From an uncultured Bacteroidales bacterium (GTDB lineage: Bacteria > Bacteroidota > Bacteroidia > Bacteroidales > Paludibacteraceae): DNA of 63,767 nucleotides. Below the pieces are notes generated by a model that saw nothing but the letters and a program-made list of their open reading frames with translations, did no database searches and was not told the DNA's origin. Shown in pieces: positions 31,113-38,605 of this stretch (positions are counted from its first letter, which is position 1; each line of letters starts with the position of its first letter). Location of the stretch: NCBI GenBank assembly GCA_902799875.1, contig CADCCH010000006.1:1-63767 (forward strand), given 5' to 3'. The position numbers were made by a program, and so were the translations under genes.

Positions 31113-31852
31113 TGTTATTAGAGAATAAAGTAGCTTTGATCACGGGCGCAGCTCGTGGTATAGGCAAATCGATTGCGTTGGCGTATGCCCGTGAAGGGGC
31201 TAACATCGCGTTTACGGATCTGGTGCACAACGAGGCCGCTGAGTCGACACGCGATGAGATAGCCGCTTTAGGTGTGAAGGTACAGTTCTATGCCTCCAAT
31301 GCGGCGGATTTTGAGGCGGCGCACCAAGTGGTAGAGCAGGTGGTGTCGGATTTCGGACGACTGGATATTCTGGTCAATAACGCCGGCATCACGCGTGACA
31401 CCTTGTTGATGCGTATGACCGAGCAGATGTGGGACCAGGTGATTGAGGTGAACCTCAAGTCGGCCTTTAACTTCACCCACGCGGCGACACCGGTTATGAT
31501 GCGTCAGCGCGGCGGTTCAATCATCAGTTTGAGTTCGGTAGTAGGTCTTAACGGCAACGCCGGACAGGCCAATTATGCGGCTTCCAAGGCAGGTATCATT
31601 GCGTTGACCAAATCCGTAGCGAAAGAATTAGGCAGCCGTGGTGTGCGTGCAAATGCGATTGCCCCGGGTTTTATCCTGACGGATATGACCAAGGCACTGC
31701 CGGAAGAGACCCTGAAGCAGTTCGTGACCATGATCCCGATGCGTCGCGGAGGAGAGCCCGAAGAAGTAGCTAAGGTCGCTCTCTTCTTAGCGAGCGACCT
31801 TAGTTCATACGTCTCCGGACAAGTGATCCAGGTAAACGGCGCGATGGCTTAG
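31112..31852 (+). CDS. fabG: 3-oxoacyl-[acyl-carrier-protein] reductase
   Basis: 246 residues, normal length. Short-chain dehydrogenase: NADPH site TGAARGIGKSIA (10-21), NNAG, active-site Ser of SLSSVVG, and YAASKAG with Tyr and Lys. PGFILTDMTKALPEE and SGQVIQVNGAMA are FabG ends. It reduces the beta-keto group in fatty acid elongation. It shares its start base with the end of lptC and converges on the GH13 gene with a 4-base overlap. Confidence 0.94.
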   Translation: MLLENKVALITGAARGIGKSIALAYAREGANIAFTDLVHNEAAESTRDEIAALGVKVQFYASNAADFEAAHQVVEQVVSDFGRLDILVNNAGITRDTLLMRMTEQMWDQVIEVNLKSAFNFTHAATPVMMRQRGGSIISLSSVVGLNGNAGQANYAASKAGIIALTKSVAKELGSRGVRANAIAPGFILTDMTKALPEETLKQFVTMIPMRRGGEPEEVAKVALFLASDLSSYVSGQVIQVNGAMA

Positions 31853-33123
31853 CGTTCGATAATCTCGTAAGCCCAAGGCTCCAGTTCAAACGTCTCGTTG
31901 GTCTCCAGCGTGACGTTTTGTTTTTGTGCGCTCATGTTCATGATCGCGCGTACGCTGTGTCCGTCGAGCGGACGTTCGCAAGTGAAGATGGCCTCGTTGT
32001 CACACGCGATGCGCACCATCGGAGCTCCGAGTTCAGGACTGAAGAGCGCTTTGTTACGTGCCCGCATGGCATTGAGTTCTTTGTACAGATCGGCAAAGGC
32101 GTATGCCTCGTCGGTATCAATCAGATCTTTCTCGAAAAACTCCAGACGGTGATGGTTTCCTACCAACTGACCGGTGTAGATCATCGGCATGCCCGGAACG
32201 ATATAGCAGAATGTAGCAAACAGTTTCGCCGCGTCACCCATACGTTCAAACTCGGTGCCATTCCAGCTGTTCTCATCGTGGTTGGTGATGAAGTTCATAC
32301 GGATGGCTTCGGGACGGATGGTGGTATCGGCCTTGGCGAAATACGCCCAGAGGTCCTCGACGTTGCTCTTGCCCTGCGCTACGTCATTCATGATGTGGTG
32401 CAGTGTCCAGCCGTAGTACATATCGAAGGCTGTTTCGGTCAGTTCGTCCGCTTTGTCCTCATCCTCTGCGAGGGTGAACATCTGCGGGTGGGTCTGGCGG
32501 AGATCGGCCATTGCCCAGTTCCAGAAATCAGTCGGTACCTCACCGGCTACGTCGCAACGGAAACCGTCGATACCGATGCTGTCCATCCACCAGTGCATGG
32601 ATTTGAGCATCTCGGCACGCATGTCCTGGTTCTCGTAGTTGAGTTTGGAGATGTCGGTCCAGTCGTATTGCACCATCAGGTTACCCAGACTGTCGCGATA
32701 GTGCCAGCCTTCGTGCTGGGTCCACTCGCTGTCCGGTGCGGTGTGGTTAGCAACCCAGTCGAGGATGACCTTAAAGCCCATCTCGTGTGCGGCGGCAAGG
32801 AAATGTTCGAAGTCCGCGCGCGTACCGAACTCGGGGTTGATGGCGCAGTAGTCGATGATCGAGTAGTAACTGCCGAGCGTGCCCTTGCGGGTGATCACAC
32901 CGATCGGCTGGCAGGGCATAACCCAGATGATGTCGATGCCGTTGTCTTTGAGCATAGGCAGCAAAGACTCTGCGGCAGCAAACGTTCCTTCCGGTGTTGC
33001 CTGACGGGTGTTGAGTTCATAGATCGTTGCGTCATACGCAAACTTCGGGTGACGTAAATTCGTCTCCTCTGCGCAGCTGACCAGCATCAGGGCAGCTGCG
33101 ATAAAAAAGAGTGATTTTCTCAT
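31849..33123 (-). CDS. Alpha-amylase family (GH13) lipoprotein
   Basis: 424 residues, lipobox LMLVSC with Cys17 followed by AEE, so perhaps surface-exposed. A (beta/alpha)8 barrel follows: IDIIWVMPCQP, VILDWVANHTAPD, IDGFRCDVAGEVP with the nucleophile Asp, TLAEDED with the acid Glu, FITNHDENS with the third Asp. It is shorter than most amylases and ends with a small beta-domain (SAQKQNVTLETNETFELEPW). It hydrolyses alpha-1,4-glucans or maltodextrins by family. It overlaps the next GH13 gene by 4 bases, so the two are one operon, and meets fabG end to end. Confidence 0.93.
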   Translation of the reverse strand: MRKSLFFIAAALMLVSCAEETNLRHPKFAYDATIYELNTRQATPEGTFAAAESLLPMLKDNGIDIIWVMPCQPIGVITRKGTLGSYYSIIDYCAINPEFGTRADFEHFLAAAHEMGFKVILDWVANHTAPDSEWTQHEGWHYRDSLGNLMVQYDWTDISKLNYENQDMRAEMLKSMHWWMDSIGIDGFRCDVAGEVPTDFWNWAMADLRQTHPQMFTLAEDEDKADELTETAFDMYYGWTLHHIMNDVAQGKSNVEDLWAYFAKADTTIRPEAIRMNFITNHDENSWNGTEFERMGDAAKLFATFCYIVPGMPMIYTGQLVGNHHRLEFFEKDLIDTDEAYAFADLYKELNAMRARNKALFSPELGAPMVRIACDNEAIFTCERPLDGHSVRAIMNMSAQKQNVTLETNETFELEPWAYEIIER

Positions 33124-35150
33124 TTTTCTTCGATATGATAGGTTAATTCATTGCGGTTGATGGTGACGATGACTTGCTGACCCAGGTACACGCGTGCGTA
33201 CTGAATCTCGTCCGGAGTGTTCTCCAGCACGATCAGATCACCGTAGAGCAGCGGCATCGAGTGACGACGGAAATGAATGAGTTCCGCTACCGTATTACGC
33301 ATGTCCTTCTCTTCGTCATTAAGCGTCTCAAAACGCATCATGTGGCGGTTATCGGGGTCGTTACCGCCTACTTCAGCATACTCGTCGCCTTGGTAGATAC
33401 AGGGCACGCCCGGCAGGGTCAGGTTGATCACCTCCAGCAGCAGCGCACGTTTGTATGCCTTCTCGGCATCACCGATTCCTACTTCTCGGGTCCAGCCTTC
33501 TTCCTTTCCCTGACTGCTGATGTCGATCGCACCGCCGGCGATAGAAGCAAAACGGATCTGGTCATGGTTACCGCTGATGTTACCCATCGTATGGTGAGCA
33601 CCGTAGGTTCGCAGCGATGTCAGTTCGTTATTTAGCACCTCATCCAATCCTTTGAAACCGCAGAGCGCCTCTCGGGTGGTGAAGTATACATTGAAATCGA
33701 ATTGGGCATTCAGCATACCGGTCTTGACGTAACTGCCGATGAGTTCAGGACTACCGTAGGTCTCACCGATCATCCAGATCGGACGACCCGGCCAGCGCGT
33801 GGCGATCTTCTGACCTAACATACGCCAGTAGCCTTCGGGTATATGTTTGCAGGCATCGTGACGGAAACCGTCCAAGTCGTAGTTAGCCAACCAATAGAGG
33901 GCACTGTCCGTCATCTGCTCACACACCTCCGGGCGCTCCAGATCGAGGGTAGGGATATGCTTGTCGAACCAGGTCGTCAGACGGGCCTCTTCCCAGAGTT
34001 CGAAGTTACGTCTGCCGTCCGGCAGGATCGAGTCCGTATGCCAGTCAGGGTGCGCCTGCAGAGTCGGGGAGTTGATATGCATGTGGTTGGCCACGTAATC
34101 GAGCACCACGTTGATCTCGTGCGCGTGCGCGCTATCTAATAAGGTGCGGAACTCGTCCGGCGTACCGAAACGTTTGTCCAACTCGGTGGCAAAGATAGGC
34201 CAGTAGCCGTGGTAACCGCTGAAACGCGTATAGGTCTTGGTCGGGTCGTACTTATTGCCGTTCTTGAACTCGTAGCATCCCCACGCGTCCCAAGGGTTCT
34301 GCGTGATCGGACTGATCCAGAGGGTGTTCACTCCAAGCTTGTCGAAATAGCCTTCGGATATTTTAGCTGTGATACCGGCCAGGTCACCGCCTTGGTAGTC
34401 CACGATATCGAGTACTTCCGGACTGTTCATCTTCCAGTCGTTGGACTCGTTGCCGTTGTAGAAACGGTCGATCATGAGCGAATAGAGTACCTGTGCCTGC
34501 TGGTCATGACGGTTGAGTAGGGCGGCATCGGTGATGATTTGACCATCCTGCAACGGCAGCATAAGGTCGTTATAGAGGTAGGTATCATCCTCTGCAAACA
34601 CACGCAGATAACTGCGTCCGCTGTAGGTTAATCCGCTCAGATCCAGGGTCCATGACCCATCTTCGTTGGCGCTCCAGCGATCGTGATCAATGAGGGTGTT
34701 CTGGATATAGGCTTCAAAAGAAGGGTTTGCTACATGATCCACGAAACCTACACGTAACAGGTCATTCTCGTAGCTGAGCGACACCAGCGCCTGCCGTACG
34801 GGCTTGTTCGGTAAGATAGGAATGGCAAAACTGCCGCTCTTGTCATGCATGGTGAGGGCGTGAATCGAGCGGTCGCGATTGACGATGTTCATCTGCTCGA
34901 TGATGGGTGCGGTACCACTCAGGTCCAGACACTCAACGGCCTCATCGGTGGTCCATTGTAGTCCTTTCCAGAGAACCGTGTCCCCGTAGAGCGCAGGGAC
35001 ATAATCGGTGAGCACTACCAGGGTAGTATCACTTGTCATACGGACAGGCATGATAGGATTGGAGGAAGCGATGGTAGCAGCAATCGGATTTTTGTGCTGG
35101 CAGCCCATTAAACAGAGGGCGATAGCCAAGAATAAGATACTTTTTCTCAT
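33120..35150 (-). CDS. Neopullulanase/cyclomaltodextrinase-like GH13 lipoprotein
   Basis: 676 residues with lipobox LCLMGC (Cys17). Residues about 20-210 form an N-terminal beta-sandwich region, including a segment on strands SYENDLLRVGFVDH and SWTLDLSGLTYSGR. The catalytic barrel starts near 215 (YSLMIDRFYNGN). Key sites are VVLDYVANHMH, LDGFRHDACKHIP (nucleophile), WMIGETYGSPELI (acid Glu), and NISGNHDQIRFASIAGG (third Asp), as in SusA-type neopullulanases. A C-terminal beta-domain closes it. The pair with the downstream GH13 suggests stepwise breakdown of starch or glycogen fragments. Confidence 0.93.
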   Translation of the reverse strand: MRKSILFLAIALCLMGCQHKNPIAATIASSNPIMPVRMTSDTTLVVLTDYVPALYGDTVLWKGLQWTTDEAVECLDLSGTAPIIEQMNIVNRDRSIHALTMHDKSGSFAIPILPNKPVRQALVSLSYENDLLRVGFVDHVANPSFEAYIQNTLIDHDRWSANEDGSWTLDLSGLTYSGRSYLRVFAEDDTYLYNDLMLPLQDGQIITDAALLNRHDQQAQVLYSLMIDRFYNGNESNDWKMNSPEVLDIVDYQGGDLAGITAKISEGYFDKLGVNTLWISPITQNPWDAWGCYEFKNGNKYDPTKTYTRFSGYHGYWPIFATELDKRFGTPDEFRTLLDSAHAHEINVVLDYVANHMHINSPTLQAHPDWHTDSILPDGRRNFELWEEARLTTWFDKHIPTLDLERPEVCEQMTDSALYWLANYDLDGFRHDACKHIPEGYWRMLGQKIATRWPGRPIWMIGETYGSPELIGSYVKTGMLNAQFDFNVYFTTREALCGFKGLDEVLNNELTSLRTYGAHHTMGNISGNHDQIRFASIAGGAIDISSQGKEEGWTREVGIGDAEKAYKRALLLEVINLTLPGVPCIYQGDEYAEVGGNDPDNRHMMRFETLNDEEKDMRNTVAELIHFRRHSMPLLYGDLIVLENTPDEIQYARVYLGQQVIVTINRNELTYHIEEK

Positions 35151-37147: not shown

Positions 37148-37618
37148 ATGACAGCAAACACAGAGATTGAACGGAAGTTCTTAGTGAACTCGGATGCGTT
37201 TAAGACGCAAGCCACGCACCGGTATGAGATAGAGCAGGGCTACCTGTGCAAGGAGCCGGGTAAGACTATCCGCGTACGCATACGTGATAATCAGGCTTTC
37301 TTGACGATTAAGTCCGGTAAACTTCGGGAGGGCTTGGCGAAGTTCGAATGGGAGCGCGAGATAGAGGTGGCGGACGCTCGGGAGTTGATGCTGCTCTGCC
37401 TGCCGGGTGCAATCCGTAAGACGCGTTACGTCATCCCTGCCGCTGCGTACGAAGGCGCACCGCGCTGCTGGGAGGTCGATGTGTTCCACACCGGTAAACT
37501 GGCAGGAAAGGCGCTGGCGGAGATGGAGTTAGGTAACGAGTATGAACCTTTTGACCGTCCGGACTGGCTCGGTGACGAAGTGACCGGTATACCGGCGTAT
37601 TACAATGCCAATATGTAA
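37148..37618 (+). CDS. CYTH-domain protein (triphosphate tunnel metalloenzyme)
   Basis: 156 residues from ATG 37148; an upstream ATG at 37127 lies inside the promoter and is rejected. CYTH marks are EIERKFLVN (residues 6-14), IRVRIRDNQAFLTIKS, LAKFEWEREIEV, IRKTRYVIP, WEVDVF and LAEMEL. Charged residues point into a tunnel that binds triphosphates and Mg. Bacterial members hydrolyse tripolyphosphate or other triphosphates; adenylate cyclase activity is known for some. Monocistronic, followed by a bidirectional terminator. Confidence 0.92.
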   Translation: MTANTEIERKFLVNSDAFKTQATHRYEIEQGYLCKEPGKTIRVRIRDNQAFLTIKSGKLREGLAKFEWEREIEVADARELMLLCLPGAIRKTRYVIPAAAYEGAPRCWEVDVFHTGKLAGKALAEMELGNEYEPFDRPDWLGDEVTGIPAYYNANM

Positions 37619-37622
37619 CAAG

Positions 37623-37644
37623 AAAGACCGCGATTGCGGTCTTT
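37623..37644. terminator. Bidirectional terminator between CYTH gene and tRNA-Ser
   Basis: AAAGACCGC (37623-37631), GATT loop, GCGGTCTTT (37636-37644), followed by more T. Confidence 0.9.
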
Positions 37645-37651
37645 TCTTTTG

Positions 37652-37738
<87 letters not shown>

Positions 37739-37778
37739 GTAAGCTTTGACTGAAATACATAATTTTCAAAAGCGGGTG

Positions 37779-37810
37779 CAAAGGTACTGCTTTTTTTTGA
37801 TATACGCAAA
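37779..37810 (-). promoter_or_regulatory. Promoter of tRNA-Ser
   Basis: Minus-strand TTTG (37810-37807) and TACCTTTG (37786-37779), 20 bp apart, with the A-tract/GCAGT spacer. The leader CACCCGCTTTTGAAAA matches those of tRNA-Glu and tRNA-Val. Confidence 0.87.
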
Positions 37811-37862
37811 TAAAAATGAAAAAAAAATGAAAAAAAAGTAAAAAGCGCCCTAAAATCTACTA

Positions 37863-37891
37863 TAAAAAAAGAAGGTTGTCTCACGACAACC
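37863..37891 (-). terminator. Intrinsic terminator of the candidate small RNA
   Basis: Seven-base-pair stem, 4-base loop and a T-rich tail on the minus strand. Confidence 0.88.
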
Positions 37892-37934
37892 CAACCTTTT
37901 CATTTAACCTTAAATCTAATACCATGAAAAACAC
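37863..37934 (-). ncRNA. Candidate small RNA or leader-peptide attenuator
   Basis: A complete minus-strand transcription unit of about 72 bases in the gap between the universal-stress gene and tRNA-Ser. The promoter is at 37939-37970. The end is an intrinsic terminator with GGTTGTC/GACAACC arms (37874-37880, 37885-37891), a GTGA loop (minus strand) and TTCTTTTTTT. It contains one short frame from ATG 37925 (MVLDLRLNEKVGLS) whose TGA lies in the terminator loop. Leu makes up 4 of 14 residues. I believe related leaders occur in other Bacteroidales but cannot name the family. It may act alone or control read-through to tRNA-Ser. Confidence 0.65.
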
Positions 37935-37938
37935 GATG

Positions 37939-37970
37939 CAAAAGTACTGCTTTTTGGTGAACTGACCAAA
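37939..37970 (-). promoter_or_regulatory. Promoter of the candidate small RNA
   Basis: Minus-strand TTTG (37970-37967) and TACTTTTG (37946-37939) with a 20-bp spacer ending AAAAAGCAG, the same architecture as the tRNA promoters. Confidence 0.85.
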
Positions 37971-38044
37971 TATTTTTTCAAAAAAGTGTTATTTTTCTTG
38001 AAAATGTAAAATTTAGTTAACAAAATGGTAGTATTCTATACCAA

Positions 38045-38605
38045 TCAGTCGCACAATGAGAATAAATCTTCCCTTGGATTGATCAACATGACAGGCACAA
38101 GTGCCTTCTGGATGGCTTTGCGCTCGGGTGGACCGAACAAAATGTCATCCAACCCGTAATCGCGGCTGGCCGTAAGGATGAGTAAGTCATGCTGAAAATC
38201 GCGTTGGCGTTCGGCCGCTTCCTGAATCAGTTTGAAACTGTCTTTGCGGGCGATACACACTTCGTAGGATATCTTATCTCCTGTTTTTTCGGCTACGGCC
38301 CTGATATGCGTCACGATACGATTGACGTTCTGTCGCGCATGCGAACCATAGTCATTGGCCTGCAGAAGAATAATATGCGCGCCGGTCTTGCGTGCCAGAT
38401 AGGTGCAAATCTCCGCTTTGTAGGTCTCCTCTTCCAGCATCGACACCGGTACCAACAAGCGTCTGATCGGTTTGATGGTCATTGTGTTGGTTACAAACAC
38501 GTACGGTCTGCGCTCCTCGCGGCATTCGTTGAGGTGGCGTTGAATGACACGTGTGTTGTTCTCGCACTCAATCAGTTTGATATCGTCGTTATTGTCCCAA
38601 ATCAT
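38045..38605 (-). CDS. Universal stress protein (UspA family)
   Basis: 186 residues. An N-terminal extension of about 45 residues precedes one Usp domain: IKPIRRLLVPVSMLEEETYKAEICTYLARKTGAHIILLQ, a KISYEVCIARKDSFKLIQEAAE segment, and HDLLILTASRDYGLDDILFGPPERKAIQKALVPVMLI. The ATP-loop GxxGxxxxxxGS of ATP-binding Usps is replaced by GLDDILFGPPE, so ATP binding is doubtful. It overlaps mltG by 4 bases and ends the cstA-to-usp minus-strand block. The 306-bp gap after it holds the small RNA, the tRNA-Ser promoter and nothing else I can support. Confidence 0.85.
   Translation of the reverse strand: MIWDNNDDIKLIECENNTRVIQRHLNECREERRPYVFVTNTMTIKPIRRLLVPVSMLEEETYKAEICTYLARKTGAHIILLQANDYGSHARQNVNRIVTHIRAVAEKTGDKISYEVCIARKDSFKLIQEAAERQRDFQHDLLILTASRDYGLDDILFGPPERKAIQKALVPVMLINPREDLFSLCD

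Follow-up and report, generated by a model that had tools for sequence, protein, structure and literature searches.

A FopS-family small RNA gene predicted in an uncultured Paludibacteraceae-type bacterium

A 108-base unit on the minus strand (positions 37,863 to 37,970) of a 63,767-nucleotide stretch of uncultured Bacteroidales DNA, the window analysed here, is very probably an independent gene for the small RNA FopS, about 70 nt long, with a sigma-ABfr-type promoter and an intrinsic terminator of its own. The same high confidence attaches to our best explanation as a whole, in which the RNA would pair in trans at mRNA start regions and the short peptide frame inside it would be a by-product. 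Sequence and conservation support the reading as a gene with its own promoter and terminator, and the gene is presumably transcribed in the window's organism. The FopS match decides the question in favour of a known regulatory RNA and against an attenuator; the option of a stand-alone small RNA, raised in the initial annotation, was the right one.

The FopS family (‘family of paralogous sRNAs’) was published in 2025, and that report (PMC11697453) describes it as a group of small regulatory RNAs of gut Bacteroidales that are thought to shut off the translation of sugar-uptake genes. The report counts 14 members in B. thetaiotaomicron and 12–15 copies in Bacteroides species, claim conservation for the Bacteroidaceae, and assign to a seed (R1′) the base pairing with start-codon regions, which in B. 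thetaiotaomicron involves the translation initiation regions of susC. The mechanism is documented there by EMSA, in-line probing and mutation with compensating mutation, the family further by knock-outs and CRISPRi, and an RRM_1 protein, RbpB, is named as partner and antagonist. New here are the occurrence of FopS in an uncultured Paludibacteraceae-type lineage, usually at two copies per genome, and its presence in relatives in which no RRM_1 protein was found; for FopS in this setting we found no report in the literature searched (subscription papers and preprints lay outside its scope).

Identity and conservation of the FopS gene

The covariance search against Rfam that had been proposed for this unit returned a full-length match to RF04319 (BTncRNA_FopS), scoring 76.2 bits against a curated cut-off of 56, spanning model positions 1–71 of 71 and carrying an E-value of 2.1e-9 for the whole window. 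The match begins exactly at 37934, the base that had earlier been chosen as the transcription start, and it is the single FopS copy that the Rfam scan finds in the window. The promoter, 14-codon frame and terminator described in the initial annotation are all present where it placed them, on the minus strand (Table 1).

Table 1. Features of the FopS unit and its neighbour in the window
Feature	Position	Strand	Basis
-33 box TTTG	37967..37970	-	read from sequence
-7 box TACTTTTG	37939..37946	-	read from sequence; core AAAGCAGTACTTTTGCA common to tRNA genes
FopS small RNA (RF04319), full length	37861..37934	-	76.2 bits, whole model
Conserved 5′ stretch, 31 nt, including seed (R1′)	37904..37934	-	alignment; seed role from PMC11697453
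14-codon frame MVLDLRLNEKVGLS, judged non-coding	37881..37925	-	stop and ATG losses in copies
Terminator hairpin, GNRA-type loop, then T tract	37873..37892	-	fold, terminator search, alignment
tRNA-Ser (GCT), separate neighbour	37651..37738	-	tRNA/Rfam scan

Upstream of the predicted start G, the TTTG box and the -7 box are separated by a 20-bp spacer, as had been claimed, and together they form a promoter of the Bacteroidota sigma-ABfr type. Among 25 copies (the window and 24 relatives), positions -44 to -1 are 85% identical and positions -120 to -45 are 60% identical. The promoter core AAAGCAGTACYTTTGCA has five exact matches in the window, of which one precedes FopS, three precede the three tRNA genes and one precedes a protein frame. 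In the nearest relative, 1.56 Mb of sequence with 29 tRNA genes contains it 30 times, where 13 occurrences precede tRNA genes, two precede FopS and 15 precede others. Judged from these sequences, the sharing of the FopS promoter core with tRNA genes is likewise a new aspect of this case.

Distant FopS copies (L247–L266) have a different upstream feature, the palindrome ATGTTN4AACAT some 35 bases upstream, which is a possible regulator site. It occurs exactly in 11 of these 20 copies, at -34 to -37 in nine of the 11, versus none of the 25 copies of the window's lineage. With one mismatch allowed the counts are 15/20 and 2/25, respectively, while shuffled sequences give exact matches at 0.03% and 0.04%.

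The most constant part of the RNA is its 5′ end. In an alignment of 35 copies (the window, eight of the 24 syntenic relatives, six second copies and 20 distant copies), variation among the first 31 positions is confined to position 12 (G or A), the other 30 being invariant, apart from an extra T inserted within the stretch in a single copy (L020). Over these 31 nt the window and its 24 syntenic relatives are on average 99% identical, and the window agrees with the Rfam consensus at every position. The stretch is unpaired in the minimum-energy fold, so the single-stranded 5′ R1/R1′ seed characteristic of FopS is present in the window, as is the Rho-independent terminator.

That terminator consists of an 8-pair stem closed by a GTGA loop and followed by a T-rich tail, and it is kept across the 35 copies. 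It is the only terminator-like site in 37601–38101, where shuffled sequences yield a mean of 0.5. The predicted RNA folds more stably than shuffled sequence, at -16.5 kcal/mol (z -2.42, with three of 200 shuffles doing as well), and RNAalifold recovers the same hairpin. Across the 35 copies, 97% of hairpin cells can pair and 14 cells are changed on both sides, values that none of 500 shuffles reaches on either count. Weighing against covariation, double changes affect only two of the eight pairs, which 66 of 500 shuffles also attain, and 12 of the 14 double-changed cells belong to the outermost pair, itself open in eight of 33 distinct rows. The covariation score of the hairpin, 0.144, is also nearly reached (0.118) with partners slid by three columns.

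The surroundings of the gene recur among relatives. The window's MltG (YceG-like) protein is 94% identical to its homologue in the uncultured Bacteroidales genome L001, and other near relatives are labelled Paludibacteraceae, some of them from sheep, goat and yak gut. Among 27 MltG loci, 25 were covered by the Rfam search, all but L027 and the distant flavobacterium-like match L026; FopS lies downstream of mltG in 24 of the 25, and the remaining locus (L011) ends before the place. At the genome level, 19 of the 27 loci's genomes were searched and all 19 carry FopS above cut-off: two copies in 16, one in two and three in one.

In the window, FopS follows a Usp-like gene on the same strand by about 110 bases, and the FopS terminator could therefore have a dual use, ending the upstream mltG-usp operon as well, with part of the RNA being 3′-UTR-derived. 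The recurrence of mltG upstream in those 24 loci and the lack of a further terminator-like site in 37601–38101 favour such an arrangement, and a precedent exists in one of the 14 B. thetaiotaomicron members, reported as 3′-UTR-derived in PMC11697453. We nevertheless consider it unlikely, as FopS has a conserved promoter region of its own that matches the tRNA promoter core.

Going by PMC11697453, the window's RNA and the B. thetaiotaomicron FopS RNAs share the 5′ seed stretch, the terminator, a length of about 70 nt and a sigma-ABfr-type promoter. They differ in copy number: the relatives' genomes carry two copies as a rule, with a range of one to three, versus the 12–15 of Bacteroides species. 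GibS, a B. thetaiotaomicron sRNA with seeds R1 and R2 (PMC7366714), is described there as having R1 in common with FopS, while R2 is absent from FopS members; the comparison is by description, as is its separation by a non-canonical promoter with the motif PM2 (PMC11697453), which is near-palindromic according to PMC7366714. LhrC1–7 and Qrr are, by description, multicopy sRNA families with several sibling RNAs, like FopS, but come from Listeria and Vibrio (PMC11697453).

The 14-codon frame and the neighbouring tRNA-Ser gene

The frame MVLDLRLNEKVGLS exists as described, with its TGA stop in the terminator loop, and the initial annotation had expected promoter, peptide frame and hairpin to be conserved together in relatives. 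Promoter and hairpin are kept; the frame is not. Nine of the 24 syntenic copies lose its stop through a change of GTGA to GGGA, which retains a GNRA-type loop, and one more copy has a shifted frame.

A small-protein mRNA encoding MVLDLR... would be consistent with the ATG found in all 24 syntenic relatives' copies and with the MVLDLRL start in 23 of them. It is contradicted because the first 31 bases are conserved regardless of codon position: the stretch is constant even at third codon bases, while four-fold sites of mltG are 44% identical in 21 of those 25 copies. The losses of the stop and the shifted frame also count against a coding role, as do predicted products whose length in syntenic copies varies between 8 aa and 60 aa or more. 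Two of the 20 distant copies, and thereby two of the 35 alignment rows, have no ATG; the other 18 give products of 10 aa up to 50 aa or more, and none of these 18 encodes the window's peptide. The authors excluded sORFs for the B. thetaiotaomicron members (PMC11697453). We regard a small-protein mRNA as very improbable. The ATG in the FopS RNA may instead have a simple origin, drawn here from sequence: the seed is antisense to a start-codon region (AATACCATGAAAAAC), and CATG is self-complementary.

Attenuation, in which translation of the 14-codon frame would control the terminator and thus read-through into tRNA-Ser, was suggested by the stop codon within the hairpin loop and by a tRNA-Ser gene downstream on the same strand. 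That gene is indeed there in the window, but is preceded on the minus strand by a promoter-like core of its own, at 37793. Among 25 relatives' loci, tRNA-Ser lies within 500 bases downstream of FopS in the same direction in eight, and in the opposite direction in five, L001 of the nearest relative among them. The other 12 loci have no tRNA-Ser close by: it is 4.9 kb away in one and was not found in 11, two of which end within 250 bases of FopS. Second FopS copies adjoin other genes altogether: all ten that were fetched (L047–L049, L051–L057) follow a gene that we take to be trmD-like, and seven of the ten precede one that is presumably pfkB-like. There is thus no conserved leader frame ahead of a cis-regulated gene, and, with the stop and frame losses noted above, the leader-peptide reading finds no support and attenuation of tRNA-Ser is practically untenable.

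Candidate targets and proposed mode of action

As a FopS RNA, the transcript would act through its 31-nt single-stranded 5′ end, whose seed is complementary to mRNA sequence around the start codon (...AATCTAATACCATGAAAAAC...). If it behaves as in B. thetaiotaomicron, it would pair in trans and block translation initiation of outer-membrane sugar-uptake genes, while the 3′ hairpin would terminate transcription and probably stabilise the RNA. The apparent leader peptide would then be a by-product of the seed's complementarity to the start codon.

Duplex energies between the 31-nt stretch and gene start regions differed between 25 SusC-search genes and 53 others (p 4e-4); the former came from 30 loci of five genomes, five of them without a usable start, and the latter from the window and L001. 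A wider comparison over 1149 genes (1.56 Mb of the nearest relative's sequence) gave p 0.02 for the five SusC genes, with one of 60 shuffled seeds as good. They rank 9, 11, 15, 226 and 1093, the top three by virtue of ATGs inside genes that are not likely starts. When 11 further TonB-receptor-like genes are added, all 16 SusC/TonB receptors give p 0.13, a result that seven of 60 shuffled seeds equal. An ungapped pairing score gives p 0.09 for the five SusC genes and 0.11 for all 16 receptors. These comparisons point only weakly to a preference of FopS for SusC start regions in the nearest relative.

A gene that we take to encode a ROK-type glucokinase matched the pairing pattern in ten of 19 genomes and was rejected as a target when its orthologues failed to preserve the pairing (of 20 starts fetched, 16 were readable). 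Genes that are presumably for secreted amylase-like proteins showed strong pairing in some genomes only, among the 30 of 51 matches examined. In the window itself, two adjacent alpha-amylase-family genes occupy 31849–35150 on the minus strand, and by eye they start with lipoprotein-like signals.

FopS and RRM_1 proteins across Bacteroidales

Published FopS works with the RRM-1 protein RbpB, according to PMC11697453, whereas RRM_1 (PF00076) was found in none of the 19 relatives' genomes searched here; a control, Bacteroides ihuae, matched. The closest kin of the window's organism thus seem to lack the protein that counteracts FopS. Among 295 genomes of the order, drawn with completeness of at least 90% requested and unconfirmed per genome, FopS was above cut-off in 58 and RRM_1 was present in 198; the FopS counts are lower bounds because 16 candidates were scored per genome. 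RRM_1 was not found in 25 of the 58 FopS genomes (E <= 1e-7), and the 295 genomes show no positive association between the two (Fisher p 0.09, odds ratio 0.58).

A MutS tree was built from the window and 29 of the 58 FopS genomes, comprising 24 RRM-negative genomes (G120, with a match in two pieces, was excluded) and five of the 33 RRM-positive ones. The window groups with the RRM-negative G001, G233 and G056, next to the RRM-positive G293. Elsewhere, the positive G270 has the negative G118 and G203 as neighbours, and G165, also positive, has the negative G300. Since negatives sit right beside positives, some RRM_1 absences may be assembly gaps.

Tentatively, and with rather less than even confidence, we suggest that FopS could be older and wider than the RbpB circuit. 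In this Paludibacteraceae-type lineage and possibly several further groups of Bacteroidales, an RRM_1-free FopS with a tRNA-like promoter might act as an unopposed, growth-coupled brake on the translation of uptake genes. Organisms that carry FopS but yielded no RRM_1 match would offer a natural way to test the contribution of RbpB.

A second small RNA-like unit of FopS-like build was seen in the same relatives, with a similar promoter core, a 5′ stretch TTTTCATAGTTAAGGTTTAGG and a strong terminator. A search of the window for it found no copy. Against Rfam it gave a sub-threshold match to BTnc231 only (28 versus 80.4 bits) in two of the 13 loci searched out of 19. It occurs once per genome in all 19 relatives (L315 at about 1501–1529; L297–L314; G001 C5:20271–20299), and by eye its terminator stem varies between genomes by paired changes. 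Across the order it is present in 25 of the 295 genomes, and comparison of the lists by eye places every one of these among the 58 FopS genomes.
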